A stretch of 62,090 nt of DNA from Candidatus Hydrogenedentota bacterium (GTDB lineage Bacteria; Hydrogenedentota; Hydrogenedentia; Hydrogenedentales; JAEUWI01): positions 1-62,090 of the forward strand of contig JACPGE010000082.1 in assembly GCA_016182605.1 (NCBI GenBank). Reading direction: 5' to 3'. Every line of letters begins with the position of its first letter. Position 1 is the first letter of the stretch. A model generated the notes under the pieces. It was not told the origin of the DNA, ran no database searches, and saw nothing but the letters and a program-made list of their open reading frames with translations. Both the position numbers and the translations under genes were made by a program. Shown here in pieces: positions 17,446-56,039 of this stretch.

Positions 17446-17802
17446 ATAAATAACGCCTTGGCCGCCCTCCAAAGTCTCTCTCACAAAACCCGTCTGTTGA
17501 TTTTCCGTCTTCTGGTGCGCCAGGGACCGGAAGGCATGATGGCCGGGGATATCGCCACCCAACTGGGCGTTCCGGCGCCCACGCTTTCTTTTCATCTCAA
17601 TCACCTCGGCCACGCGGGCCTTATCGAACGGCGCCGGGATGGCCGGACGCAATGGTATACGGTGCGCTTTGAACAGGTTCGCGAGCTATTGGGTTATCTC
17701 GTGGAAGATTGTTGCCAAGGCCGGCCGGAATTGTGTGGCATGGCGGCAGACCCCTGTTGCGCGCCAAATCCGGCCGAACACAACGACGAATGTCATGTCT
17801 GA
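17440..17802 (+). CDS. arsR: ArsR-family metalloregulatory repressor
   Basis: The 120-residue winged-helix repressor is followed by arsenic genes. The helix-turn-helix lies in MMAGDIATQLGVPAPTLSFHLNHLGHAGLIERRRDG (about residues 28-65). The classic ELCVCDL metal site is absent. Instead cysteines cluster at the C-terminus (EDCCQGRPELCG, DPCCAP, DECHV), as in other ArsR subtypes with C-terminal cysteine sites. The ATG at 17440 lies inside the palindromic operator and has no Shine-Dalgarno, which fits a leaderless message; a TTG six codons in is the only close alternative. The stop overlaps the start of the arsC-arsM gene by 8 bases. Confidence 0.88.
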   Translation: MEINNALAALQSLSHKTRLLIFRLLVRQGPEGMMAGDIATQLGVPAPTLSFHLNHLGHAGLIERRRDGRTQWYTVRFEQVRELLGYLVEDCCQGRPELCGMAADPCCAPNPAEHNDECHV

Positions 17803-19159
17803 TCTGTACGGGAACAGGATCAAGGTGCTCTTCCTTTGCACGGGCAACTCGTGCCGCAGTCAGATGGCGGAGGGCTGGGCCCATGCGCTCAAGGGGGAGG
17901 TGCTGGAGGCCTATTCGGCGGGCATCGAGACGCACGGCATGAACCCGAATGCGGTGAAGGTGATGGCGGAGGCAGGGGTGGATATTACGGGGCAGCATTC
18001 CAAGAAGGTGGACACGCTGCTGAGCGTGCCGCTCGACTACGTGGTGACGGTGTGCGGCCATGCGAATGAGACGTGTCCCCGATTCCCTGGCATGGCGAAG
18101 GTGGTGCACGTGGGATTTGACGATCCCCCGAAACTGGCCGCCGGTGCGGCATCGGAAGAGGAAGCGTTGCAGCATTACCGGCGCGTGCGCGACGAGATAC
18201 GTGCGTTTGTCGAGACGCTGCCCGAAAGTTTGATCCCATCCCGAACCCGAAAGGAAACCCTGCCCATGTCCACGATAGAGACCCTCAAGCAACAAGAAGT
18301 GCGCGACAAAGTGCGCGCAGGCTACGCGGCCATCGCGGCGCAGAACACGGAGAGCGGCGCGACTGGCTGCTGTGGCGGGTCCTCCTGCTGCGGCGCGGAC
18401 AACGCGAACGATGCGCAGGCCCTGGCGGCGGCGATCGGCTACGCCACCGACGAACTCACGGCATTGCCCGAGGGCGCAAACATGGGCCTTTCCTGCGGCA
18501 ATCCCACGGCGCTTGCGGCGCTCAAGCCGGGCGATGTCGTGGTGGACCTGGGAAGCGGCGGCGGTTTTGACATCTTCATCGCCGGGCGCAAGGTGGGCGC
18601 GGAGGGGCGCGCGATCGGCGTGGATATGACGCCCGAGATGCTGGGGAAGGCGCGGAAGAATGCGGTGGCCTACACGGAACGCACCGGGCTGAACAACGTG
18701 GAGTTCCGGCTGGGCGAGATCGAGCATCTGCCCCTGGCGGACAATTCGGTGGACGCGATCATTTCAAACTGCGTGATCAATCTCTCCCCGGACAAGCCCC
18801 AGGTGTGGCGCGAGATCGCGCGCGTCTTGAAGCCCGGCGGACGCGTTTCCGTGTCGGACATAGCGCTGTTGCAGCCGCTGCCCGAGGCCATCATGGGCAA
18901 GGTGGAAGCACTAATCGGCTGTGTGGCCGGCGCGGTGACCATGGCGGAGACAGAGCGGATGATCCGCGAGAGCGGCCTGGGCGCCGTCGATCTGGTTTCC
19001 CAGTCGTCTTATATCGACGCGATGACGAACGTGCAAGATCCGTTGTATCAGGAGATTCTCGGCCACTTGCCCGCCGGCGCAAGAGCGAGCGAGTACATTA
19101 CGAGCCTGGCCGTCACGGCGCGCAAAGCGGCCCCATGTTGCTGTGGCGGGGCGTGTTAA
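17795..19159 (+). CDS. Fused arsenate reductase - arsenite methyltransferase (ArsC::ArsM)
   Basis: One 454-residue frame joins two arsenic enzymes. Residues 1 to about 150 are a thioredoxin-coupled Ars[15 protein letters not shown] has the CX5R loop (C15, R21), and [11 protein letters not shown] supplies the two redox cysteines near 87 and 94. From the internal methionine near residue 158 it is an ArsM SAM-dependent methyltransferase. It has the SAM loop [11 protein letters not shown] and the three As(III)-binding cysteines in GLSCGNP, SNCVINL and IGCVAGA. Cysteine-rich tails flank it ([11 protein letters not shown] and PCCCGGAC). AAGGA (18251-18255) lies 10 bases before the internal ATG at 18266, so a separate ArsM could also be made. 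Predicted to turn As(V) into methylated arsenic. Confidence 0.9.
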
Positions 19160-40203: not shown

Positions 40204-41634
40204 TCAGGGCGCCGATCGCTCCCGGTATGCCCGGCCGCGCTCGCGGTAACCGTCCACATTGGACAACACCGCGTCCCGGTTCCGAAACCGCCCCTGCGCC
40301 TGCGTCTGGCTGATCTGCGACCACCCGGAATGGATGCGGTACAGCGCCAACGGTGCGTCCACATACACCGGATCGGTGGCACTGCCGTACTTCAGCATGA
40401 GGTCCCAGTCCTGAAACTGGGGCAGTGCCTCATCGAATCCCCCCAGCGCTTCATAGAGTGCGCGCGTGTGCACGATCGTATTGAGATCGATATAACTCTT
40501 CTCCAGCAGCCGCGCAAAACTGAAATCGCGCGGACGCACGGGCCGGACCCGCTGCCGGCCTTCGTCCCCATGCACCACCTCCACAAAATTTCCATAGGCC
40601 ACCGCGCGATCCGGATGCGCCATCAGTTGCGACAGCATCACCGAAAGATAGAACGGGTGCCACAGGTTGTCGGAATCCAGGTAGGCAATGTACGTGCCTC
40701 GTGCTGCCTGGAGTCCTGCATTGCGCGCCCGCGCCGCGCCACCATGGCTCAGCTTCAAATGGCGAATCCGTTCGTCCTTTTCGGCAAGCACCACGGCCCC
40801 CGTCTCGTCCTCACTGCCATCGTCGCAAACGAACAGCTCCCAATGCGGCCATTGCTGCTCCTTCACACTCTGAATGGCTTCAGCGATAAGGTGCGCGCGG
40901 TTATAGGCCGGCATCACAATGCTGACCAGGGGCCGCTGCGCTTCATGCGGCAACGCATCCAGTGTGCATTTCACAACCTGCTCCCCCCGATGCAGCATCC
41001 ACGCGATGGACGGCCGGCCTTCCCCTTTCAGCGCTGCAGCCAGGTGCGCCGCATAAATCCCCGCGGGCAACGGCGCGGCTTCCCGCAGCGGCGTGCTGGC
41101 TTCTCCAGGCGGGTCCTTCGTTGCCACAACGCCGGAAGTGTGACGCAGGTACCTGCCATGTTCGTCCCGGGCGCGCGTGGAGGCCATCTCGAATTGTGCG
41201 GGCTTCAGCCCGATCACGCCCGTCAGCCGCCGCAATGCAACCCCGGCCCGCCACCACTGCGTTCGCTCCATGGACACGATGAGCGCAAAGTAGACCTCGA
41301 TATCCCCCAGTGCCCGCTCCAAATCCCCGGCCAGCACACCCCCGGAAGGGCCTGCTTCCTCCACATGTGCAAAGTAGATCGCCTGCTGCGCCTGCCAGCG
41401 CTCCCTGGCCGCGGCCGCTGCACGGCGGAACGTGGCGATCTGCGCGCCGTACCAGGGCACGAAACGAAAATACGTCTCCCCCAGGCGCCACCAGCCCAGC
41501 CCCAGCATTTCTTCCATACACTCCGACAAGGCATAAAAATGCCCATCGGCCTCGGCCAGGGCCCTCCCGCACGAAATCCGGTTCGCGCCCGATGCGCCCC
41601 CGGCCATTCCCGATCGATGCACCACCGTTCGCAC
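40204..41634 (-). CDS. Family 2 glycosyltransferase with N-terminal extension
   Basis: The 476-residue protein has about 225 N-terminal residues with no recognised domain (helical, Trp- and Ala-rich). A GT-A glycosyltransferase follows: PLVSIVMPAYNRAHLIAEAI, LFVCDDGSEDETGAV, ARGTYIAYLDSDNLWHPFYL (acidic metal site) and GGFDEALPQFQDWDLML. It closely resembles the first GT2 domain of the 1415-residue fusion at 46-50 kb, sharing the AYLDSDN-WHP and GGFD-DWDL blocks. It follows another GT2 gene by 21 bases and ends facing the FGE-like gene. The exact start is uncertain because no strong ribosome site precedes 41634. Confidence 0.82.
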   Translation of the reverse strand: MRTVVHRSGMAGGASGANRISCGRALAEADGHFYALSECMEEMLGLGWWRLGETYFRFVPWYGAQIATFRRAAAAARERWQAQQAIYFAHVEEAGPSGGVLAGDLERALGDIEVYFALIVSMERTQWWRAGVALRRLTGVIGLKPAQFEMASTRARDEHGRYLRHTSGVVATKDPPGEASTPLREAAPLPAGIYAAHLAAALKGEGRPSIAWMLHRGEQVVKCTLDALPHEAQRPLVSIVMPAYNRAHLIAEAIQSVKEQQWPHWELFVCDDGSEDETGAVVLAEKDERIRHLKLSHGGAARARNAGLQAARGTYIAYLDSDNLWHPFYLSVMLSQLMAHPDRAVAYGNFVEVVHGDEGRQRVRPVRPRDFSFARLLEKSYIDLNTIVHTRALYEALGGFDEALPQFQDWDLMLKYGSATDPVYVDAPLALYRIHSGWSQISQTQAQGRFRNRDAVLSNVDGYRERGRAYRERSAP

Positions 41635-43581: not shown

Positions 43582-43862
43582 GGCGAATTACTAGCCCTTC
43601 CTTCTATCGTGCACCCGCGTTCATCAGACCGCAGCAATCGGCCCGAACAACCCCTAACATGGTACGCAACTTTATGTGGCCGTGTCGACCTCCGGACTTT
43701 GCCTGTAGGTCAACTGAGACGCAGGTTGACTCCGCCTTCGATCACTGGAACTGAGAACATAATTTCGTTTACCATTCATATTCACACCAAATTCAATGGA
43801 ATACACCCTTTTCCCAGTTCTACTTGGCTTTTCAGTCGTCCGAATCCGTGGAGCACTTAAGA

Positions 43863-44951
43863 ATGCAAGAAGCAGCAGTTCCTGTAGGCACCTCCTATCT
43901 GCTTCGATTCGGACGTGCCCTGATTTTCGCATCCTTGTTCCTGGTTGGCTTCTGTGGCGGATTGATTGTCTTGAATCTGACTCCGTCGTCCGTGACCGGC
44001 AAAGAGCTGCAGGCAAAGATCGACTGGATCGACAGGCACAGTACCGAGGTAGACACAATATTCATCGGCTCAAGCCATGTCCATCACCAGATTTCACCGG
44101 CGGTCTTCGACGAAATCACGTTGAAATGCGGCAATCCGACTTATTCGTTCAATCTGGGCTGCTTTGGAATGGTACCTCACGAGATGGAGCGCGTATTGTA
44201 CACAGCACTCACCGAAGGTAAGCGATTCAAGAATGCTTTTGTCGCAATCGGCGTGGGGGCGCCAGGCACCAACTATCCCAATACGCAGCGCGCCATTTGG
44301 TGGCATGATCTCTTTGAAACCAGTATTGTATTGGCAGATGTGCTGAGTTATGACGTCCCATTCCAAACGAAATACGGAATGCTGCAGGACCACTTGCGTC
44401 ATGCAGTTCTGAATATTGGAAAGATGGGCCGCTGGCGCTCACTGTTCCAGCAACCGCCTGATACACCTGATCTCATTCTGGAAGAATTGTCCTTGACACG
44501 GGGCTATTCACCAATCGCCCGCACAGCCGGCAATGAAGAAGAGTACGATAAGCTCCGCCACGCACTTACCGAACGCATGGCCGACTTCGAGCAGACTCGA
44601 AATAAACTTATCGCTCAGGCAAAAGTTGATGACGGAGCACGTGAACTTACTCCACAGGAGCAAGTCTCCTTGAGACTTATACGCCGGATTGTTAAGAGAC
44701 TGGAAAGTCGTTGCGATCGGATCATACTCTTCACTCCCGTTGGATATGGGGCAACCTTTCCTAACTTGGACCAATACCTTGAAGGCAGCAAAGCAGAATA
44801 TTGGGCGCTCAATGATCCGATTCGCTTCGAGCAGATCTACAACACAGACAAATGGGCGAATCTAACGCATCTGAACAAAGAGGGGGCGGAAGAGTTCACC
44901 GAAATCATAGCGAATCAATTCTGCAGCTTTCTCTCAGCGGGAGCCCGATAG
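43863..44951 (+). CDS. SGNH/AlgX-like membrane-anchored protein paired with an MBOAT acyltransferase
   Basis: The 362-residue protein has one N-terminal membrane helix (FGRALIFASLFLVGFCGGLIVLNL), then an extracytoplasmic domain with IDTIFIGSSHVHHQISP-like sequence, matching the GDS/GSS-type SGNH hydrolase nucleophile block. A C-terminal THLNKEGAEEF may hold the catalytic histidine. The start at 43863 is set by GGAG 9 bases upstream; a TTG at 43824 has no such site. Such proteins work with MBOAT proteins in O-acetylating exported polysaccharides, as AlgX/AlgJ do with AlgI. It has lower GC than its neighbours and starts the MBOAT pair. Confidence 0.75.
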   Translation: MQEAAVPVGTSYLLRFGRALIFASLFLVGFCGGLIVLNLTPSSVTGKELQAKIDWIDRHSTEVDTIFIGSSHVHHQISPAVFDEITLKCGNPTYSFNLGCFGMVPHEMERVLYTALTEGKRFKNAFVAIGVGAPGTNYPNTQRAIWWHDLFETSIVLADVLSYDVPFQTKYGMLQDHLRHAVLNIGKMGRWRSLFQQPPDTPDLILEELSLTRGYSPIARTAGNEEEYDKLRHALTERMADFEQTRNKLIAQAKVDDGARELTPQEQVSLRLIRRIVKRLESRCDRIILFTPVGYGATFPNLDQYLEGSKAEYWALNDPIRFEQIYNTDKWANLTHLNKEGAEEFTEIIANQFCSFLSAGAR

Positions 44952-44954
44952 TAC

Positions 44955-46364
44955 ATGCTGTTCTCAGAGCCCCTCTTCTTCGTATTCTTCGCGGCCGCCT
45001 TTTCAGTCTATTGGGTCACCCCATGGAACGCCGCCCGCAAGACTTGGTTGCTGATTGGAAGTTACTACTTCTATGGGAGTTGGGATTGGCGCTTCCTTCT
45101 CCTGATTTTCGCCGCAACGCTTGCAAACTACCTGGCCGCGCTTTTGATGACCGATGCCCGGCCGCAATTCATCCGGAAAGCCGCGTTGTGGTCAAGCGTC
45201 CTCTTCAGCTTGGGTGTTCTCGGCTTCTTCAAATACTACAATTTCTTCGTGGTCTCTGCCACCTCGTCGTTGTCGTGGCTCGGCATAGATCTTGGCGATC
45301 GCACACTCCCCATCATTCTTCCTGTCGGCATCAGTTTCTTTACCTTTCAGGCCATGAGCTACACAATAGACTGTTATCGCGGTGACTTGAAGCCGGTCCG
45401 CAGTTTTCAAGACTTTGCGCTCTTTATCTCCTTCTTCCCGCAGCTTGTTGCGGGGCCCATCGTTCGGTCATCGTCATTTCTTCCCCAGTTGAATGAGAAG
45501 AAATTTCTTTCCAACGTGCGCGTGCGGCCAGCCATCGTCTTGTTTCTCGTAGGATTCATCAAGAAAGTCTGTGTTGCAGATAATCTTGCGCCCTCGGCGG
45601 ACGTCATCTTTGGAGCAGCTGGAGATTACGGTCCGTTCAGCGTGTGGATCGGTGTTTTGAGTTATGCCGCCCAAATCTACTGTGACTTCTCGGGCTACAC
45701 TGACATGGCAATTGCAACTGCGGCACTGCTCGGATACGAACTGGAAATCAACTTCCGTTGGCCTTATTTGGCAAGCAATATTCAAGAGTTCTGGCGCAGA
45801 TGGCACATTAGTCTGTCAACGTGGCTTCGTGACTATCTTTACATTCCCCTTGGCGGAAACAAAGGCAACTCAAAATGGCTCACGCACCGCAACCTGATGA
45901 TTACCATGCTGCTCGGCGGACTTTGGCATGGCGCTTCCTGGAATTTTGTAATCTGGGGGGGCTTGCACGGCATGGCGTTGCTCATGCATCGAATGCTTCC
46001 GGGACTCTCCGCATTAAGTGGCAAGCGCATCGTCGTGATCCTGTCCACGCTGATTACGTTCTATTGGGTTTGTATCGCCTGGATTTTTTTCCGGGCTGCA
46101 ACCCTGCAAGATGCCGCCACGTTGCTCCAATCCTTCGCGTTACTTACATCTGAGGGCACAAAACAAATCCCAGAAGCGAGTTCATTAGCGGTGATACTCG
46201 CGGCTCTGGCGGTTTGCCATTGGATCGAATTCCGGATGCAAATTACCGGCTATGTGTCCAGGTTGCCCGTATGGGCGTTCGCCTTATTCGTGGGATTCAT
46301 GGCTGCCTTAAGCCTGCCCTTTGTGCCGACGGACTATCGCCCATTCGTCTACTTCCAGTTCTAA
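44955..46364 (+). CDS. MBOAT-family O-acyltransferase (AlgI/DltB-like)
   Basis: This is a 469-residue inner-membrane protein with about eleven helices. LFSEPLFFVFFAAAFSVYW opens the family pattern. FFPQLVAGPIVRSSSFLPQL and CDFSGYTDMAIATAALLGYEL are typical of AlgI. The conserved active-site histidine is in LLGGLWHGASWNFVIWGGLHG near residue 320. It transfers acyl groups across the membrane for O-acylation of a polysaccharide. It follows the SGNH protein by 3 bases. Base composition is visibly lower in GC than the flanking genes, which suggests acquisition as a pair. Confidence 0.94.
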   Translation: MLFSEPLFFVFFAAAFSVYWVTPWNAARKTWLLIGSYYFYGSWDWRFLLLIFAATLANYLAALLMTDARPQFIRKAALWSSVLFSLGVLGFFKYYNFFVVSATSSLSWLGIDLGDRTLPIILPVGISFFTFQAMSYTIDCYRGDLKPVRSFQDFALFISFFPQLVAGPIVRSSSFLPQLNEKKFLSNVRVRPAIVLFLVGFIKKVCVADNLAPSADVIFGAAGDYGPFSVWIGVLSYAAQIYCDFSGYTDMAIATAALLGYELEINFRWPYLASNIQEFWRRWHISLSTWLRDYLYIPLGGNKGNSKWLTHRNLMITMLLGGLWHGASWNFVIWGGLHGMALLMHRMLPGLSALSGKRIVVILSTLITFYWVCIAWIFFRAATLQDAATLLQSFALLTSEGTKQIPEASSLAVILAALAVCHWIEFRMQITGYVSRLPVWAFALFVGFMAALSLPFVPTDYRPFVYFQF

Positions 46365-46386: not shown

Positions 46387-49300
46387 TCAAGACTTGTGTG
46401 CCAGCATCTCATTCGCTTTCGCCAACACGATTTCAGGGGTGATCTGAGCAAGACAAACCTGTTCTCCGCAGGCCATGAGCGCTTTGGGATCGGCCACATA
46501 GCACGGGCAGCACGGAATGTCGCTCTGAAGATACCGATTCGTCGCGGAATCCCCCCAAGGGGCGTTCTTTGAAGGCATGGTAGGGCCAAAAATTGCCAGG
46601 ACCGGTGTTTTCATCGCAGCGGCAACATGCATCAGGCCTGAATCATTGGAAATAAACAGTCGGCAGTCCCGTATCAGCCCCGCCGTTGCACGCACATCCA
46701 GTTTGCCAGCGAAGTTGTGCACGGTGCCCAACGGACGACGGGACAATCCCGCGATGACACATTCAGCGTCTTGGCACTCGTCTGGGCCGCCACAGAGGAC
46801 CACCTGATAGCTTTCTGGCAGCATATCCAGCAGCGAAGACCAGTACTCAAGGGGCCATTTCTTCTTCTGCATGTGCGCCGAGCCCGACGCGCCGCAATGA
46901 ATGCCAATTAGATTCCCGTTGAATCCAAGCTTCACTCCGGTTCCTTCATCACACGGGAATTCCATGTCTGGCGTGTCGCCTTCCCATCCCAACTGACGAA
47001 TGATATCGAGGTTGTGCAACACCTCATGACGATGCACAAAATCGACTTTGGGATGGGTGATGTGCCTGGGAATAACCCGCTTCAGATAAGGCGTGGGGCG
47101 GCCAAGATTTGTAAATGGCGGATACAGTGCAACGTCAAACTCTCCTGCGCCAATTCTCTCCTCAAGTTCCATTGGATCTACCGCGCCTGTTGCCGGATCT
47201 TTGCGCTCCAAACTCAATACGCGATCCACCAAATCTTCAATGATCTTGGCTTCCTGTCTGAAGCAGACCATCGTAATAATTGCGTCTGGCAGGTGAGATC
47301 GTAATGCGCGCAACGCGGGAACGAACATCACCATGTTGCCAATGCCGGACGGTTTCACAACAAGAATTCGTTGCGGCGCCACCGTCGGAGCTGAGCTGTT
47401 CGGCATTATCTCGACGCCAACGGGCCGGGAAGATTTGGGAGCGGCGGAAAGGTCTGGCTTCAATCGGGGCACATATGAAGCCGTCACACCGTCTGGTTCC
47501 CTTCCCGGCTTGACATATTCCAGGACCTCGAAACCGTCTAGTTTATAGTACTCGAAGTCATCGGCGCGCACAGCCGCACCCCAACACGCCACAAAGGTCT
47601 CACGGTTGTACATGATGGACTTGCCGCGGCCTTCAGTCTTTCCCTCCAAGTGAAATACCACACTTGCAGGTTCATAGAGCATGGTTTTTCCAAGTTGTTG
47701 CTTCATCCGGAAGCAGAAGTCCATGTCTTCTCCGCCATTGGCGTAAACCGGATCGAGCCCACGAAGCCGTATGTAGTCAGCGGCCCGGATCGCCAGACAC
47801 GCCCCAGTCAGGACTTGGAATGTCCGCGATATATTGACGCATGCCGCATCTCCCGGCGCGCCTTTGTAAATGTGATACGGGATCTTGGAGCGATTGGAAA
47901 ACACGATCCCAGCGTGTTGCACGGTGCCATCTTCATACAGCAGCTTCGGGCCCACTACACCAACATCGTCCTGGTTGGCCAGAGGCGCTATCAACGCATC
48001 CAGCCAACCGGGAGTAACAATAGTGTCATTGTTGAGCAGAACGATGACATCACCCCGGCTTTCGCTTGCCCCGACGTTATTCCCCAGGGAGAAAAAGTAG
48101 TTCTCATAGTTCTCGACCAGGCGCAGGCCCCGGTGTCGGCTTGCAATGCGCCGGAGTTCGTCGCGCGTCTCCTTGTTGCACCCATTGTCCACCAGCACCA
48201 CCTCGAATGAACACCGGGCACTGTGTTGATAGATGGAGTTCACACAATTCTCGGTCAGTCGCGCCTGATTGAACACAGGAATAACTATCGAAACGAGCCC
48301 TCTTATACGTAGAGGCAATTCCGCCTCCAGCGCGTCCCAGTCCACCAGGTGCTTGTTGAGCACTTTGAACTTGAACGTGGGCGCTTCCTCCGCCGTGATC
48401 TGGTTGAGCCGGCGGTGCTTGTTGTAGTCGCAAAGCGCAATGGGGACTTCCACCGGAACATGGTGTTCGGTGTAGCGCAGAATGAGATCCCAGTCGACCC
48501 AGCGCCGCAACGCCGTGTCGAATCCACCCAGTTCCCCGGCAAGTTCGCGCCGGTGCACAAAGATGTTGATGTCGATGTAGTTGTTCTTCAGCAAGGCATC
48601 GCGGCGAAAATGCAATTTGCGGTAGCTGAGCGCCCCGTCCGCGTCGTGGTCGACGATCCGCAGCGCCGCATAGCCGGTCTTCCGGCCACTGAGCGCGAGC
48701 GCATTCACCATATACAGCAGGTAGTCCGGGTGCCACGTGTTGTCGGAATCCAGATAAGCGATCACCGCGCCGCAGCTCTCTTGCAGCCCCCGGTTGCGCG
48801 CCCCGGACACCCCCTCGTGATCGATGCGGACGAAGCGGATGTTCCCGTGCGAACGCTGGTAGCGCGCCACAATCTCCGCCGTCTCGTCGGTGCTGCCATC
48901 GTCGACAATGAGCAATTCCCAATGGCCGTAGGATTGCGCCAGCACGCTCTCCAGCGCCGCGCCGATGGAGGCGGCCCGGTTGTACGTGGGCATGACGACG
49001 CTGGCCAAGAGTTCCTGCGGGCGCTTGCCCAGCTCCGTGCGAAGCCGTTGGAGATCGGCTTCCGGGAGCAGGGTCATTTCCCGGTTCGATTGATCTGCCA
49101 CCGTCCGTTTCAGGATCGTCTCGAAAGAGGCGTCCGAAGGGGGCGCTGCCGCGTCCTCCTTTGGCGGGGCTACGGCGCGTTCAGGCTTTTTTTTTTGGCC
49201 GAGCCCGAAAAGGCCCAGCAGTTTGAGACCCGGCGTTCCAAAACGCAGGAGCCGCCGCACCGCGGGATGCTCCCGCAATTCCTGCACGGATCGCCGCGCC

Positions 49301-50634
49301 TCGGCCCGCTCCCGCTGTGCGTTTTGTATGGACTGATTCAGACGCTTTTCCAGATCCCCGTATTTGACCCAGATTTCCTGAAGCTCATCCAGTTTCCCCT
49401 GAAATCTCCGGTTGCTCTCATCAAGGGGCACGCAGCCCGTCGCTGTTCTCCCGAGCCGGGCATCGGCCTGCGCCAATTGCTGTGCCTGGGCCGCGCGCAC
49501 ACGGCCCAGATCGGCAAGGGTGGCTTCCAGCCGCGCATTCTCCTGTTTGGCCGCCTGGAGTTCATTTCGGAGAGACTCTTCTGTCAGCTTCATGGCATCC
49601 AATTCCCCCTTCAGCGACGCGCCTGCCAGCTTCATGGCATCCAGTTCCCCCTTCAGCGACGCGCCCGCCAGCTTCACGCCATCGAGTTCCCCTTTCAGCG
49701 ACTCGTTGGCCGCCTTCAGGGTGGCGTTCTCACACTTCACGGCCATCAACTCCAGGGTGACGGCCTTGCTCTCGTTAACCTGCGCCTGCAATTGCTCCAG
49801 CGTGATTCCGGTCTTCCCCTCGCTCAGGTCCTGCAGATGGCTCTCCAGCGTCTTGATGTGCCGCCCCTTCACCGCCTGATCCGTGCGCACCTCCTTCAGC
49901 TTCAACTGCAAAAACTTCAGGTGCGCGTCGCTCGTGATCAACCCGGCCCAGCCGCGCCCAATCGCCTCCTCCGCCTTCGCGCAAACGGCCACAAAGAACT
50001 TCGCGTGGTCGTGCCCATAGGATCGCCATTCACGGACATCGGCAAGATTGCCCGTGCCCGTACCAATCGTCGTGAGCAGATGGATCTGCTGCGGTTGAAT
50101 CAGCACATGGGGAAAGGTGTCCCGCAACAACTGGCCGAAGGTGTCCCGCGAATACTCCGTAACGTGGTGGGGGTTCTGGTTGTCCAGCTCGAAGGGGTAA
50201 TCGATATTCGGCGTCGATACCAGGAATACGCCGTCCTCCGACAGCAGTTCCTGCGCGATACGGAAGAGCCTCAGGGGTTCGTTGATGTGCTCCACGATTT
50301 CGAAGGCCGTGATGCACTGAAACGGCTCGGGATGCACCTCCTTCACGCGCGCAATGAAATCGTCCGCACAAAGGTCCGCGCAAATGAAATTCACATTGCT
50401 CCGGCCGAAACTGTTGCGCGCGTATTCCACCGCCTCCCCGGAAATGTCCGTGCCCACCACCGACCGCGCAAATTCCGCCAGCATGCTCGCCCCGTAACCC
50501 GCCCCCGTGGCCAGGTCGAGCGCGTCCCGCCCCTGGGCATATTCCAGAGCAAGGGCATAGCGCACCCGGTGCTCAAACTCGAGCAGTTCCAGCCCGCGCT
50601 TCCCGGGGATACAGCGTTCTCCCGTGTACTCCAT
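46387..50634 (-). CDS. Five-module protein: methyltransferase - coiled coil - GT2 - GT2 - GT9
   Basis: The 1415-residue fusion begins with a SAM methyltransferase (about 1-230; ALDLATGAGYGASMLAEF binds SAM). A coiled coil (about 245-480) includes three 14-residue repeats. Two GT2 domains follow, near 540-760 (SVVMPTYNRAASIGAAL, AYLDSDNTWHP) and 775-1010 (SIVIPVFNQARLTENCV, VLLNNDTIVTPGW). Last comes a GT9 heptosyltransferase-like domain (about 1085-1415; ILVVKPSGIGNMVMF, HCGASGSAHMQKKKW, ISNDSGLMHVAAAM). Start 50634 follows GAGAGAGGTGAACGC; an open frame runs to 50718 through a palindrome. GC drops after about residue 775. Likely assembles and caps a surface glycan before export by the divergent ABC pair. 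Confidence 0.88.
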   Translation of the reverse strand: MEYTGERCIPGKRGLELLEFEHRVRYALALEYAQGRDALDLATGAGYGASMLAEFARSVVGTDISGEAVEYARNSFGRSNVNFICADLCADDFIARVKEVHPEPFQCITAFEIVEHINEPLRLFRIAQELLSEDGVFLVSTPNIDYPFELDNQNPHHVTEYSRDTFGQLLRDTFPHVLIQPQQIHLLTTIGTGTGNLADVREWRSYGHDHAKFFVAVCAKAEEAIGRGWAGLITSDAHLKFLQLKLKEVRTDQAVKGRHIKTLESHLQDLSEGKTGITLEQLQAQVNESKAVTLELMAVKCENATLKAANESLKGELDGVKLAGASLKGELDAMKLAGASLKGELDAMKLTEESLRNELQAAKQENARLEATLADLGRVRAAQAQQLAQADARLGRTATGCVPLDESNRRFQGKLDELQEIWVKYGDLEKRLNQSIQNAQRERAEARRSVQELREHPAVRRLLRFGTPGLKLLGLFGLGQKKKPERAVAPPKEDAAAPPSDASFETILKRTVADQSNREMTLLPEADLQRLRTELGKRPQELLASVVMPTYNRAASIGAALESVLAQSYGHWELLIVDDGSTDETAEIVARYQRSHGNIRFVRIDHEGVSGARNRGLQESCGAVIAYLDSDNTWHPDYLLYMVNALALSGRKTGYAALRIVDHDADGALSYRKLHFRRDALLKNNYIDINIFVHRRELAGELGGFDTALRRWVDWDLILRYTEHHVPVEVPIALCDYNKHRRLNQITAEEAPTFKFKVLNKHLVDWDALEAELPLRIRGLVSIVIPVFNQARLTENCVNSIYQHSARCSFEVVLVDNGCNKETRDELRRIASRHRGLRLVENYENYFFSLGNNVGASESRGDVIVLLNNDTIVTPGWLDALIAPLANQDDVGVVGPKLLYEDGTVQHAGIVFSNRSKIPYHIYKGAPGDAACVNISRTFQVLTGACLAIRAADYIRLRGLDPVYANGGEDMDFCFRMKQQLGKTMLYEPASVVFHLEGKTEGRGKSIMYNRETFVACWGAAVRADDFEYYKLDGFEVLEYVKPGREPDGVTASYVPRLKPDLSAAPKSSRPVGVEIMPNSSAPTVAPQRILVVKPSGIGNMVMFVPALRALRSHLPDAIITMVCFRQEAKIIEDLVDRVLSLERKDPATGAVDPMELEERIGAGEFDVALYPPFTNLGRPTPYLKRVIPRHITHPKVDFVHRHEVLHNLDIIRQLGWEGDTPDMEFPCDEGTGVKLGFNGNLIGIHCGASGSAHMQKKKWPLEYWSSLLDMLPESYQVVLCGGPDECQDAECVIAGLSRRPLGTVHNFAGKLDVRATAGLIRDCRLFISNDSGLMHVAAAMKTPVLAIFGPTMPSKNAPWGDSATNRYLQSDIPCCPCYVADPKALMACGEQVCLAQITPEIVLAKANEMLAHKS
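49187..49196. repeat. Ten-base homopolymer inside the fusion gene
   Basis: Ten consecutive T on the plus strand are A10 in the coding strand, encoding the lysines of GQKKKPE near residue 480. The tract sits between the coiled coil and the first GT2 domain. Such runs are prone to polymerase slippage and would separate the modules if shifted. Confidence 0.8.
49585..49710 (-). repeat. Three 42-nt in-frame repeats in the coiled coil
   Basis: Positions 49585-49626, 49627-49668 and 49669-49710 are tandem copies, the first two differing at two bases and the third more diverged. Each encodes a 14-residue unit like ASLKGELDAMKLAG, exactly two heptads, so copy-number change would lengthen the coiled coil without shifting its register. 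Confidence 0.85.
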
Positions 50635-50686
50635 GCGTTCACCTCTCTCCAGGGACACCGCGTGCCCCTCGACCGTCAACTGGGCC

Positions 50687-50726
50687 AAAGTATACTTTAC
50701 ATGCGAAACAAGGATCATGTAAAGTA
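50687..50726. promoter_or_regulatory. Overlapping palindromes between the fusion gene and the ABC exporter
   Basis: AAAGTATACTTT (50687-50698) is a perfect 12-base palindrome. It overlaps the left arm of TACTTTACATG (50693-50703), which pairs with CATGTAAAGTA (50716-50726) across 12 bases, an exact 11-base inverted repeat. The minus strand also has TTGACA (plus 50732-50737). The location between divergent glycan genes suggests an operator controlling both, but no regulator is identified. Confidence 0.55.
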
Positions 50727-50874
50727 AGCCCTGTCAAAAAGGCGGCTAAACCGGCCCGTTTGAAGCATTTGCCGGGCACGCGCCTCCCGCGGGACGCCGG
50801 GCCGCGCCGCGCGGATGGCCCGCTCCCCTCACCGGCCGCGCCGGCACAAGCTAAGGACTGAAAAACGTAACACG

Positions 50875-51654
50875 ATGCGCTGCATTGCCGCCGTCTGGAC
50901 ATATCGCCACCTTATCGCCCACAAGTCCTGGGCGGATTTCCGCGCGGAATCCCAACGCACCTTCCTCGGCATCGCCTGGTGGCTCCTCGATCCGGTCATC
51001 AACGTCATTATCTACTACCTCTGCTTCGGCGTCTTCATGAACCGCGCCGGAGGCGACTACATCCCCTATCTGACCACGGGAATCATCGCCTGGATGTGGT
51101 TCTTCTCCGCGCTCACCACCGGCGCCTCCGCCATCTGGAACAACGCCCAGGTGATCCGCCAGGTCGCCCTGCCCAAGATCATTTTTCCAGTCGCCCAGAT
51201 CGCCGTCTGCACCTACCGCTTCCTCTTCTCCCTCATCGTCCTCTTCAGCATCCTCTTTCTTTGGGGCTACCGCCCCGACGCCTACTGGCTCCTCCTGCCG
51301 CTCCTCATGGCCGTCGAGCTGCTCTTCATCGCCGGGCTCACCTTCGTATTCGCCGCATTCGTCCCCTTCGTCCCGGATTTGGCCAACTTCATCCAATATG
51401 CCTTCCGGCTCATCTTCTTTCTCTCCTGCGTCATGTACAAGCTCGAATCCCTCTCGCCCAACGCGCAGGCCTGGCTCCGCTACAACCCCATCGTCTACCT
51501 CCTCGACGCCTACCGCGACGTCTTGATGTACCACACCCTGCCCAATTTCGCCGCCATCGCTGCCATCAGCCTCTTTGGGCTCGCAGGCGCCGCCGCCGGC
51601 ATGCTCCTCATCGACCGGCTCGGGCCCATCTACGCCAAGAGAATCGTGCGATGA
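50875..51654 (+). CDS. ABC-2 type polysaccharide exporter permease (Wzm-like)
   Basis: The 259-residue protein has about six membrane helices. The cytoplasmic N-terminus YRHLIAHKSWADFRAESQRTFLGIAWWLLDP is the standard ABC-2 opening, with the amphipathic segment before the first helix. RYNPIVYLLDAYRDVLMYH near residue 210 is characteristic of O-antigen/capsule exporters. The start at 50875 fits family length; the frame is open from 50815, and no strong ribosome site was found. The stop overlaps the ATPase start in an ATGA. Together they would export an undecaprenyl-linked glycan across the inner membrane. Confidence 0.92.
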   Translation: MRCIAAVWTYRHLIAHKSWADFRAESQRTFLGIAWWLLDPVINVIIYYLCFGVFMNRAGGDYIPYLTTGIIAWMWFFSALTTGASAIWNNAQVIRQVALPKIIFPVAQIAVCTYRFLFSLIVLFSILFLWGYRPDAYWLLLPLLMAVELLFIAGLTFVFAAFVPFVPDLANFIQYAFRLIFFLSCVMYKLESLSPNAQAWLRYNPIVYLLDAYRDVLMYHTLPNFAAIAAISLFGLAGAAAGMLLIDRLGPIYAKRIVR

Positions 51655-52793
51655 ACCTGGAAACCCAGCACGAAACCCTTCTCTCCTTCCGGAACGTCGG
51701 TGTTTCCTACTGGCTGAGGCAGAACGCTTTCAAGCGCTCCCGCCACTTCGCCCTCAAAGACGTAACCTTCGACCTCAACCGGGGCGACTCCCTCGGGGTC
51801 ATCGGGCGGAACGGCTGCGGCAAGAGCACCCTGCTCCGCCTGCTTGCAGGGGTCATGGCGCCCGACCACGGGAAGATCGCCGCCAAACCCGGCCTGCGCG
51901 TCTCCCTCCTCACCCTGCAACTCGGCTTCGTCGACTACCTCTCCGGGCGCGAAAACGCGATCCTCAGCGGCATGTTTCTCGGCATGAAAAAACGCGACAT
52001 CATGAACCGCCTCAACCTCATCATCGAGTTCGCGGAACTCGGCGATTTCATCGATCAGCCCCTCTCCACCTATTCCTCCGGCATGCGCGCCCGCCTCGGC
52101 TTCGCCGTCGCCTTTCAGATGGATCCGGACATCATCCTCGTCGACGAAGTCCTCGGCGTCGGCGACGCCGACTTCCAGGCCAAGTCGGTGGAGATCATGC
52201 AGGAACGGATCCAGTCCGCCAACAGCACCGTGGTTTTCGTTTCCCATTCCGCCCCCCTCATCAAGAAACTTTGCAACCGTGCCATCTGGCTGGAAAACGG
52301 CGTGGTCAAAGAGAGTGGCGAGACCGCGAAGGTGGTGGACTTCTACGAGACGGCGCTCGCCGAGCACTACGTGCGGCAGATCGAGACGGAGATCAAGCAG
52401 GGCCTGCCCGTATTCATTCGCGCCAAAGGGGCCAACACCATCTACATCCTGCGCGATCGAAAGGTCCTGCCCATTCGATCATGGGACGAGTTTATTGCTC
52501 TGGGCGGCCGGACAGAAGCCATTCGCGTGGTGCTTCCAGACATATTCGCGGCCCTCCAGGACGCCCGTCAGGTCGATCGCGTGATCCGGCAGCTTGAGGC
52601 CAACGTTTTTTGCTTTGTCCGCCCGCAGGGCAAAAAGGCCGTATTCGCCATTCGAAACGGCAAACTGATTCCCGTTGAGTCGCCCGAAGATCTCGCACGG
52701 CTTGGGGGACACCCTGGGCTCATCCGCGAGATTACCCTGGAACAGTTTTTTGCAATTCGCGACGAGGGCATTCAGGGCGTACTCGACTTCTAA
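51651..52793 (+). CDS. ABC polysaccharide exporter ATPase (Wzt-like) with a duplicated C-terminal domain
   Basis: This 380-residue ATPase drives the Wzm-like permease. Walker A is VIGRNGCGKSTLLRLLAG near residue 55. The signature YSSGMRARLGFAVAF is near 143, followed by Walker B PDIILVDEVLGVGD and the H-loop VVFVSHSAP. Family C-termini are usually a beta-sandwich that binds the O-antigen end. Here two repeats of about 50 residues take its place: KGANTIYILRDRKVLPIRSW with DEFIALGG near 255-300, and QGKKAVFAIRNGKLIPVESP with EDLARLGG near 320-365. This repeat resembles DGKKRPI-type segments of extracellular proteins and may read the exported glycan. Confidence 0.9.
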   Translation: MNLETQHETLLSFRNVGVSYWLRQNAFKRSRHFALKDVTFDLNRGDSLGVIGRNGCGKSTLLRLLAGVMAPDHGKIAAKPGLRVSLLTLQLGFVDYLSGRENAILSGMFLGMKKRDIMNRLNLIIEFAELGDFIDQPLSTYSSGMRARLGFAVAFQMDPDIILVDEVLGVGDADFQAKSVEIMQERIQSANSTVVFVSHSAPLIKKLCNRAIWLENGVVKESGETAKVVDFYETALAEHYVRQIETEIKQGLPVFIRAKGANTIYILRDRKVLPIRSWDEFIALGGRTEAIRVVLPDIFAALQDARQVDRVIRQLEANVFCFVRPQGKKAVFAIRNGKLIPVESPEDLARLGGHPGLIREITLEQFFAIRDEGIQGVLDF

Positions 52794-53346: not shown

Positions 53347-55860
53347 TTAAGGTACAGCGCGCAACACAGGCCCCTTCACCGCGAACACCACCCGCCGCGG
53401 CGATTTCGCCTTCACGACCTGCACCGTCAGCGAATGAGAGCTTGGGCTCGTGCGAAAGGAAACCACCCGCTCCTCGAAATCCGCCGTGAGCGCAAAAGAC
53501 GGCGCCGCAAGCCGGTTCTGGTCCTGGTCGTAGACGGCGATGTGCAGCTTCACGCCCTCATAACCCTCCACCCCCTTCAATTGCGCGCGCACCTCATAGG
53601 CGGTATCCGGCGCGCATGCAAGGGACGATACCTCTGAATCCGAGTCTCCGCCATAGACCACGCCATCCCAGTTGCCCGGGCCCGTGAGGCAGCGCACTTC
53701 GTCCGCACCTGCCGCCAGCGCCTCGCATGCGCTCGCACCCACGCTCCGCCAGGGCTGCACGGGGCCTTCCCCGGCCCCGCTCTGTGCGCCTGCGCGCGCC
53801 AGACGGGCATCCCGCGCAAAAAAACGTATCGGTGCGCCGCCAGGATTGAGGAGCGAGAGTGCCGCGGCAGCATGTTCCGCCCGGTACCCGGCGTCAACCG
53901 CAAATTGTTGGGGTGTGGAGTCCAGATGGGCAACCGTAAACGCGTTCTCGCTGTCTGCCGTGTCGTGGGAACCCACCACCAGGATCACCTTCCCCGGTGT
54001 GTCGCTCCAGAGCCACACCTCGCCCGTCGATCGGTCCCCGGGGGCCACCGGGACAGCATCGGCCTGGAGAATCGAAGCGCCGGGGGCAAGCGTGAGGGCG
54101 GCCGTATTTGCATTGGCTGCCGTCTTGACGCTCACCGCGCCACTGCGGCGCCAAGACGCGTGCCCAAAGTCATCGGGCGCGGCGAGGTGGTTGTATCCCT
54201 TGGAGAACCACTCCGAAAAGTGCCAGCGCCGCCCAAGATACCAGCGGTCCAGCGCCACCCGGGGCACTTCCTTGAATCCGCGCGCAATGGCCAACGTGGC
54301 GGATTCGGGATAGTTCTCCGCATTGAAAGGCGCGGAGGTTACGGAGAAGAAGTGCCCGTACCGCGAAAGAAACTCCTCAAAGCGCCCTTGTTCCGGCGGC
54401 GTATTCATGTGCACGGCGTAGGACGCGCGCTGGGCATCGGGCCCTCGCAGACCCCGGAAATACATGCCGGAATACCAGACGAGCTGATCGTATACGACCG
54501 CGGTGTCCCGCGGCGCCGACTCCACGCGCTGCATTCCGCCGCGCCACGACTCCCGGTATGCGTGGGAAGCCTGTAACGTGTTCAATGTCATGAAGGCTTG
54601 TCCCAACAGAAGCGGCACGCAGGCGCTTCCCGCAAGCCCGCGGCCCACGAATAGCGTGGCTGGATGCGCCCGGAAATCGGGAAAGCCCGCTTTCTTGAAA
54701 AACCACGCGAACAGAGAAAGGGCGTCTGCAATACCGAGAACGGCCATGAGCAAGACAGGCATATGTATAAAAAGTGCGTAGCGCGGCTCGCCAAAAGCAT
54801 AGAGTCCCGTCAGCCCGGTCGTGAGCAGCGCCAGCAGCGTAAGGGAAAGATACACGGCCAAGCGGAAACGATGCGATGCATAGAGGAAGAACGAGCGAAT
54901 CAGCCCCACGTGAAACAGCGCCAACACAAGCGGAAGCAACTGCGGGAACTGTCCGTGAAGCGGAAAAAAGGGGGAGGGCGCGAATGCCTGCGCGAGATAG
55001 CCCGCGTAACGGGACACTGCGAAAGACACGGCCCCGTGCAGCGATTTCGGATACTCCGAGAAGGGGAAGTAAAGGTGGTGTATCTCGTCTCTGGGCTGCA
55101 AATACTCTGCATGTGTATAGACCGCCATCATTGACAAGCCGCAAACCAGCATGGGCAGACCCATTGCCAGCCCAAGTGCCGCGCCCCGGCCTGCCGCGCG
55201 CAGCGAAAGTCCCCGGCCCAGCGCAAACAGCAGGGCCAGCACGGCAATCAGTATTGCGCCTGGCAAAAGGATCCTCACGGAGATCAACACGAGCGCCAAT
55301 AGCCCCGCGCCGATCAGCACCCCCAGCCTCCTGGGAAAGGGCTTCCCAGTGTCTTCCCAAAGCAATAGCAGGTGCAGGAGCACGGTAGAGCTCACCACAT
55401 CCATGGCGTAGGGAATCATGGCCCAAGTGCCAAACGTGTGTACAGTCTGGTTCACCCCGTAAAAGACTGCAAATACCAGAAGCCAGAGACCTTCCAGCAG
55501 ACCATGGCGCCGGACCAGCCAAACTGCGTAAAGCATGCCGGAGAGGCTGATACACACCGCAATCATGCGCAAGGGAACGATGTTCTCAAAATCGAGCTGC
55601 ATCAATTTCACGGGATAGTAAACGGACAGCCGCAGCACGACGCCAAACCACGGAATGAAGTCTTTGAAATCCTTGCTGATGTGGGAAAGCACGTGGGCCG
55701 TATCCGTATCGTACGGCTGGCCACTGGCGGCGAGTATCGAGAGCATCGCAAAAAACTGCGCCGCCGCGGCCCCCAGCCCCGCGGCAAGAAACCAGGCGGC
55801 GCCAGTGCTCACCGCCGTATCGTGCGGAGCAGGCAGGCGTTGCCCAATCCTTTCGCCCAT
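53347..55860 (-). CDS. Polytopic membrane protein with a periplasmic C-terminal region
   Basis: The 837-residue protein starts at 55860, where GGAGG lies 9 bases upstream; the frame is open to 55989 without such a site. About eleven to twelve membrane helices span residues 15-450. A soluble region (about 460-837) follows with DTAVVYDQLVWYSGMYF and beta-rich segments such as GDRSTGEVWLWSDTPGKVILVVGS and KLHIAVYDQDQNRLAAPSF. The layout resembles GT-C (PMT/ArnT/Wzy-like) lipid-linked sugar transferases, but I cannot point to a definite DE/DD motif in the first periplasmic loop, though YDTDTAHVLSHISKDF is a candidate. It sits beside the glycan-export genes. Confidence 0.75.
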   Translation of the reverse strand: MGERIGQRLPAPHDTAVSTGAAWFLAAGLGAAAAQFFAMLSILAASGQPYDTDTAHVLSHISKDFKDFIPWFGVVLRLSVYYPVKLMQLDFENIVPLRMIAVCISLSGMLYAVWLVRRHGLLEGLWLLVFAVFYGVNQTVHTFGTWAMIPYAMDVVSSTVLLHLLLLWEDTGKPFPRRLGVLIGAGLLALVLISVRILLPGAILIAVLALLFALGRGLSLRAAGRGAALGLAMGLPMLVCGLSMMAVYTHAEYLQPRDEIHHLYFPFSEYPKSLHGAVSFAVSRYAGYLAQAFAPSPFFPLHGQFPQLLPLVLALFHVGLIRSFFLYASHRFRLAVYLSLTLLALLTTGLTGLYAFGEPRYALFIHMPVLLMAVLGIADALSLFAWFFKKAGFPDFRAHPATLFVGRGLAGSACVPLLLGQAFMTLNTLQASHAYRESWRGGMQRVESAPRDTAVVYDQLVWYSGMYFRGLRGPDAQRASYAVHMNTPPEQGRFEEFLSRYGHFFSVTSAPFNAENYPESATLAIARGFKEVPRVALDRWYLGRRWHFSEWFSKGYNHLAAPDDFGHASWRRSGAVSVKTAANANTAALTLAPGASILQADAVPVAPGDRSTGEVWLWSDTPGKVILVVGSHDTADSENAFTVAHLDSTPQQFAVDAGYRAEHAAAALSLLNPGGAPIRFFARDARLARAGAQSGAGEGPVQPWRSVGASACEALAAGADEVRCLTGPGNWDGVVYGGDSDSEVSSLACAPDTAYEVRAQLKGVEGYEGVKLHIAVYDQDQNRLAAPSFALTADFEERVVSFRTSPSSHSLTVQVVKAKSPRRVVFAVKGPVLRAVP

Positions 55861-56039
55861 CCTTTGCAGATCCTCCGTGGTTCCAAAATGCCCCGGAGGC
55901 ATTATGGCATCGCAACGATCTGGTGCGCCATATCCCGCGAGACGTGCAGATTGCCCGTGAACCGTTTCCTTCGACTGCCACATCCCCAAAAAACGCCCTG
56001 CTGGGGCGGCTCATATCGAAATCCAGTCCCGCGGAAATC

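Follow-up and report, generated by a model that had tools for sequence, protein, structure and literature searches.

A fused methyltransferase, coiled-coil and glycosyltransferase protein in Hydrogenedentota, a putative polymerase, ruler and terminator with a poly-A tract at its internal border

The window (the whole 62,090-nucleotide stretch of Candidatus Hydrogenedentota DNA that was analysed) encodes a 1415-residue protein in which a methyltransferase, a coiled coil and three glycosyltransferase (GT) domains are joined in one chain. Its gene lies head to head with a Wzm/Wzt pair, 180 bp away. The features of the locus are listed below, with the evidence for each in brackets.

40204-41634, reverse strand: GT2 protein related to the first GT2 domain of the fusion protein (Pfam, sequence search)
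46387-50634, reverse strand: fusion protein, methyltransferase - coiled coil - anchor - GT2 - GT2 - GT9, 1415 aa (open reading frames, Pfam, alignment)
46399-47373, reverse strand: GT9 domain, residues 1088-1412 (Pfam, PDB sequence, motif)
47635-48294, reverse strand: second GT2 domain, residues 781-1000, with LNNDT and GGEDMDF (Pfam, motifs)
48415-49002, reverse strand: first GT2 domain, residues 545-740, with VDDGSTD and YLDSDN (Pfam, motifs)
49187-49196, reverse strand: A10 tract (T10 on the forward strand), a putative slippery site at the border between ruler and polymerase (sequence, genome-wide counts)
49198-49269, reverse strand: conserved segment HPAVRRLLRFGTPGLKLLGLFGLG, residues 456-479, read as a membrane-interface anchor (alignment)
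49273-49929, reverse strand: coiled coil and putative ruler, residues 236-454 (heptad test, AlphaFold helices, length variation)
49581-49702, reverse strand: tandem repeat within the coil, 42 bp x 2.9, 91% matches, each unit being 14 aa or two heptads (repeat search, translation)
49969-50634, reverse strand: class I SAM methyltransferase domain, residues 1-222 (Pfam, AlphaFold and structure alignment, motif)
50815-51654, forward strand: Wzm, ABC-2 permease (Pfam)
51651-52793, forward strand: Wzt, ATPase with an unusual C-terminal part (about 52371-52790) of two alpha/beta repeats (Pfam, model)

The initial annotation had described this order of five modules, with the methyltransferase/coiled-coil front end joined to the transferases opposite a Wzm/Wzt pair, and both points are confirmed: the former by the frame, Pfam, structure alignment and the heptad test, the latter by the divergent orientation and short spacing of the genes. 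The open frame extends over 1443 codons (46387-50718, reverse strand). We place the start at 50634 because the alignment of orthologues begins at MEYTGER and a GAGGTGA-like ribosome site lies upstream. The methyltransferase domain has a Pfam match at about residues 32-171 and the glycine motif ATGAGYG at residue 42, and its AlphaFold model aligns with SAM methyltransferases with Z scores of up to 19.6 over residues 22-222 (VIA-align). The 60 structures listed for the methyltransferase profile are general SAM methyltransferases and do not include WbdD, which does not speak against kinship with it. Chondroitin synthase GT2 structures align to the fusion protein in a sequence search of the PDB. 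In the GT9 domain, the best Pfam stretch covers residues 1242-1379 and a heptosyltransferase/GT9 structure aligns over residues 1088-1360. This domain has an Asn (in GIGNM) where the four other GT9s compared carry an Asp (GD), and the Asn is common to the window, genome G049 and a relative outside the phylum (L054). We take the replaced Asp to be the catalytic base, so the window GT9 domain may be inactive or altered.

The heptad periodicity of the window coil (mean score 0.44 versus 0.28 in shuffles) was reached by none of 500 shuffles; that of the G047 coil is weaker (22 of 500 shuffles reach the real score). The proline fraction is 0.0 over residues 234-455, and AlphaFold places helices at residues 236-271, 279-393 and 404-454 (mean pLDDT 65.8, eight sequences). 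The coil is the variable part of the chain: between the conserved ends SDAHLK and HPAVRR it spans 58 residues in G049, 84 in G047, 110 in G017, 118 in G022, 132 in G016 and 222 in the window, i.e., it varies up to fourfold between relatives. The hydrophobic and basic segment that follows suggests an anchor at the membrane interface. We tried the hydrophobic moment as proof of such an anchor and rejected it: at 0.33-0.43 it is only moderate and not exceptional within the proteins (80th to 94th percentile within each).

We searched for orthologues in a phylum sample of 68 genomes (class- and phylum-wide searches gave the same 68 as the order). For the fusion protein, 8-10 candidates were initially scored in each genome, and homologues were accepted at E 1e-60 or better. 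The fusion was found in 8 of the 68 genomes. It is complete in a single frame in the window, G016, G017, G022 and G047, lies in two overlapping frames in G049, and is represented by its C-terminal part at a contig start in G054 and by its N-terminal part at a contig end in G059. The modules are thus fused in other genomes too, and are not always separate genes in the orthologues. The alignment shows the same N-terminal order throughout, with few gaps in the methyltransferase and GT2 domains. The C-terminal GT is swappable: it is a GT9 in two of seven orthologues (window, G049) and a GT4 in five (G016, G017, G022, G047, G054). The GT9 end given in the initial annotation therefore holds for the window and not as a general trait, GT9 being one of two C-terminal choices. 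In G047 and G049, a second methyltransferase stands at the extreme C-terminus, after the GT4 or GT9 (L040 5549-10300; L043 5404-8889). Outside the phylum, L054 encodes a GT2-GT2-GT9 cassette that is 40-47% identical to that of the window, with a different N-terminus. The nearest named loci among the matches listed (L055-L058) encode GT2-GT2-GT4-like polymerases without a methyltransferase, and the methyltransferase of the fusion protein was not found in their flanks either.

The A10 tract stands directly after the anchor, in the context GGCC-A10-GCC in the window. An exact A10 occurs at this border in four of six orthologues (window, G047, G022, G049) and in neither G016 nor G017; in each of the four genes it is the sole A or T run of at least seven. 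The architecture does not require it, as the two orthologues without a tract show. G016 and G022 are sisters in the tree (support 97/98), so the tract holders are not a clade and the tract was lost or gained repeatedly; G047 and G049 group together at 100/100 and are not independent cases. Exact A10 runs are rare genome-wide: counting the one at the border, there is one in the window genome (6.76 Mb), one in G047 (7.0 Mb), two in G049 and five in G022. Runs of at least nine number 11 in the window genome, 10 in G047, and 5 and 26 in the other two (G049 / G022). None of the other A10 runs (one in G049, four in G022) lies in a frame tied to glycan genes; those of G022 are outside frames or in doubtful ones, and that of G049 (L172 1196-1205) lies in a 448-aa frame, just past a signal-peptide-like N-terminus. 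Among 16 of 80 distant GT protein loci, the search for slippery runs gave one A8 and none of at least nine.

A change of frame at the tract would end the protein almost immediately. With A8, A9, A11 or A12 the window gene would give 483-488 residues, with a stop 1-5 codons past the run, and the same lengths would give 352-355 residues in G047 and 382-386 in G022. In G049, the A10 itself gives a 326-residue methyltransferase-coil-anchor protein; a run of A9 or A12 would lead into the downstream frame. Of the two alternative frames, the one that stays open longer closes 5 codons from the tract in the window, 4 in G047, 3 in G022 and 5 in G049, and such closeness is found at 0.99%, 0.75%, 0.08% and 1.24%, respectively, of the codon positions of the same gene. 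Genes known for slippage show comparable features: Thermus thermophilus dnaX has an A9 run and makes about half of its product in the short form because stops lie close behind, and the A11 run of Citrobacter rodentium tssM yields two forms whose ratio matters, as described in PMC1088944 and PMC4256274. As in these genes, a poly-A run (at least nine A or T inside the coding sequence, here A10 in four of six orthologues) is combined with near stops in the other frames (within five codons in the window, G047 and G022), which would give short and long products. The proteins are otherwise unrelated, and slippage, measured in dnaX and tssM, is only predicted here. No outstanding RNA structure was found in the 70 bases past the tract (z -0.7 to 1.2 versus mononucleotide shuffles). 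We thus rejected ribosomal frameshifting driven by a stem-loop and favour plain slippage.

The tract might instead have arisen neutrally, from a basic patch rich in lysine that follows the anchor, with only the full-length fusion mattering. Given the amino acids and the codon usage of the gene, the probability of an A10 is 0.037 in the window, 0.0024 in G047, 0.125 in G022 and 0.025 in G049, so that, for each gene taken singly, its presence at the border is not particularly improbable. In G017, arginines occupy the corresponding position, such that basic charge may be what is kept. The tract is nevertheless unlike usual lysine triplets, as there is a single A10 among 583 KKK-like 9-mers in the window genome and a single one among 542 in G047 (409 and 520 such 9-mers in the other two tract genomes, overlaps counted). 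Moreover, the first base of the run falls at codon position 2 in the window, 3 in G047, 1 in G022 and 3 in G049, i.e., in three codon phases, and the alternative frames that close within 3-5 codons at the tract stay open for 59 (G016) and 107 codons (G017) at the equivalent place of the tract-less orthologues. We therefore regard a neutral origin as somewhat unlikely.

The association with the exporter extends beyond the window, although not as adjacency. In G017, the closest Wzm and Wzt homologues (53% and 66% identical) lie about 8 kb from the fusion gene on the same contig; elsewhere they are on other contigs, and in G016, G022 and G047 the contigs bearing the fusion gene yielded no ABC-2 permease. 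Adjacency to Wzm/Wzt thus fails as a conserved mark in these three genomes, and the arrangement emphasised in the initial annotation is that of the window. A matching Wzt (E 1e-65 or better; 11 of 68 genomes) is present in seven of the eight genomes with the fusion and in 4 of the 60 others (Fisher p 2.6e-6, uncorrected for kinship). The link holds outside family f11 (3/3 versus 1/48, p 1.9e-4, again uncorrected for kinship) and is weak inside it (4/5 versus 3/12, p 0.06). In G026, a genome without the fusion, a methyltransferase-coil protein ending in HPAIRRLARFNWFGLKLLG is encoded 3 bases after wzt (L171 7583-8731), and its coil is closed by the same kind of segment as that of the fusion protein. 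This layout is a separate-gene, WbdD-like form of the putative ruler. Both results support a link between the methyltransferase-coil unit and an ABC exporter.

They also bear on the possibility that the methyltransferase only decorates the glycan, the coil being a scaffold and export taking another route. This would fit the distance of Wzm/Wzt in several genomes, the flippase-like gene next to the fusion in G047 and the lack of a carbohydrate-binding module (CBM) on Wzt. It accounts poorly for the co-occurrence with a specific Wzt, for the stand-alone methyltransferase-coil protein directly after wzt in G026, and for the G023 protein next to Wzt (L046 2552-5995, reverse strand), a divergent methyltransferase-GT2-GT2 chain in which a coil-like stretch can be made out by eye. 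We consider this explanation unlikely.

On the window Wzt, Pfam finds the ATPase only, and the beta-sandwich CBM was not recognised. The terminated systems described in PMC11231755 carry a CBM on Wzt, so the system is not assignable to the exporters in which a CBM gates export of capped chains. The model of the C-terminal part (three sequences, mean pLDDT 77) shows two alpha/beta repeats, and its comparison with the PDB gave no match at E 0.001. In the sequence (52371-52790), each repeat is about 48 aa long (FIRAKGANTIYILRDRKVLPIRSWDEF...) and is modelled as a beta-beta-beta-alpha-beta-alpha unit; together the two replace the domain that Wzt usually carries. The repeat unit is present in one copy in G017 and G054, and in none in G022 and G047, whose Wzt stops near the ATPase.

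Parts of this architecture have precedents. The combination of methyltransferase and GTs in one chain is known from Geobacillus WsaE, and a protein that extends, measures and terminates a chain has already been shown in Klebsiella pneumoniae O12 WbbB and O7 ORF6, as described in PMC2943079 and PMC11231755, respectively. Close in layout is O7 ORF6, described as methyltransferase-kinase-CBM-coiled coil-GT2-GT2 (PMC11231755), which shares with the fusion protein the N-terminal methyltransferase, the central coil, the two C-terminal GT2 domains and a Wzm/Wzt exporter. Compared by description, the fusion protein differs in that its methyltransferase and coil lie too close together for an intervening kinase or CBM, and in its extra C-terminal GT9 (or GT4), its A10 tract and its series of coil lengths. 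O12 WbbB likewise unites polymerisation, a coil ruler and termination in one polypeptide, but is described as terminating with a Kdo transferase and not a methyltransferase (PMC11231755). In the WbdD proteins of Escherichia coli O9a and O8, the methyltransferase, alone in O8, is set apart from the polymerase by a coil that bears it (PMC3482155, PMC5082667); there, unlike here, the polymerase WbdA is a separate protein and the O9a WbdD has a kinase. The stand-alone protein of G026 is nearer to this WbdD/WbdA layout than the fusion is. Finally, WsaE has a methyltransferase, two GT domains and Wzm/Wzt alongside, but, compared by description, makes a rhamnan on an S-layer protein (PMC2943079). Three parts of the layout of coil-based terminators are found here: the putative terminating enzyme sits N-terminally, at the distal tip of a long coil (methyltransferase 1-222, helices 236-454; a likeness of layout only), the presumed polymerising domains (GT2, GT2, GT9) are at its other end, and Wzm/Wzt belongs to the same system (adjacent in the window and matched in seven of eight genomes with the fusion).

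We propose, as a slightly probable reading, that the fusion protein is a one-chain polymerase, ruler and terminator of a glycan exported by the neighbouring Wzm/Wzt, with additional control by slippage at the A10 tract. The observed architecture, orthologues, coil variation, Wzt co-occurrence and tract with near stops would be combined as follows with predicted activities, oligomers, anchor, ruler and slippage. The GT2, GT2 and GT9 domains at the membrane would extend a lipid-linked chain, while the conserved GLKLLGLFGLG segment would anchor the coil, which would hold the methyltransferase at a set distance. Once the chain end reached the methyltransferase, methylation would cap it and Wzm/Wzt would export it, such that chain length would scale with coil length. 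In E. coli O9a, coil insertions are described as lengthening and truncations as shortening the modal chain (PMC5082667). The earlier suggestion of a ruler is supported by the variable length of the coil, by the separate methyltransferase-coil gene behind wzt in G026 and by the co-occurrence with the matching Wzt; the measuring of chain length is what we infer from them.

The A10 between anchor and GT2 would make the RNA polymerase (or DNA replication) slip, and the slipped product would end just past the anchor, as methyltransferase-coil-anchor alone. Terminator-only and full-length subunits would then form mixed oligomers, in a ratio set by the dnaX-like slip site. In E. coli O9a, polymerase occupancy and coil length are described as setting O-antigen size together (PMC11231755). 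A strict fusion fixes occupancy, which a slip site at the border would free, and slippage would restore a variable polymerase occupancy as in the O9a size distribution. It is quite possible, if a little short of probable, that the conserved slip site yields two proteins from one gene, a full enzyme that extends, measures and caps and a WbdD-like cap-ruler, with slippage frequency setting occupancy and the coil, tuned by two-heptad repeats, setting distance.

The same tract could instead serve phase variation: the A10 would mutate by replication slippage, and cells would switch between the fused polymerase-terminator and the terminator alone, changing the surface glycan. The halves of the G049 gene are out of frame at the tract, long homopolymers are described as prone to hypermutation during replication (PMC1088944), and switching by an intragenic tract is reported for the pili of Bifidobacterium breve (PMC9187656). 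Yet all four holders, each species being represented by a single genome, have a tract length of 10, and in three the halves are in frame, which makes this quite unlikely. Lastly, it is highly improbable that unrelated genes were joined or split by errors in assembly or sequencing, because, even if all genomes are drafts and the G049 split sits at a homopolymer, the same N-terminal order occurs in one frame in five assemblies (complete in G016, G017, G022 and G047 besides the window) and the A10 tract recurs in four.

If the proposed slip site is real, a single gene would encode the two factors known to determine O-antigen size, a fused polymerase-terminator otherwise locked at one to one would regain an adjustable stoichiometry, and recoding would be linked to the control of glycan length. 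A search of an open-access collection of papers, judged by title and the start of the abstract, did not find slippage in glycan assembly. What is new here is the coil as the variable part of the chain, together with the separate methyltransferase-coil gene after wzt in G026, and the A10 at the border between coil and polymerase. The variable coil provides a natural series of putative rulers, 58-222 residues long, on a shared conserved framework, which makes the ruler model testable across evolution, and not by engineered coils.

Other genes of the window were noted as well. Relatives of the GT2 protein at 40204-41634 occur in all eight genomes with the fusion versus 1 of the 60 others (matches to the first GT2 domain, E 1e-30), and longer relatives adjoin the fusion gene in G017 and G054. 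Among the glycan genes of the window, 43824-46364 (forward strand) encodes a DltB-like acyltransferase of the MBOAT family and a partner of 375 aa that has no Pfam match; third-position GC is low in this region (0.55-0.64), suggesting that it may be a recent arrival. Beside wzt, 53347-55989 (reverse strand) encodes an 880-aa protein that is N-terminally membrane-embedded by eye and has no Pfam match. Farther away, at 17639-19159 (forward strand), a single 506-aa frame unites a low-molecular-weight phosphatase with a methyltransferase.
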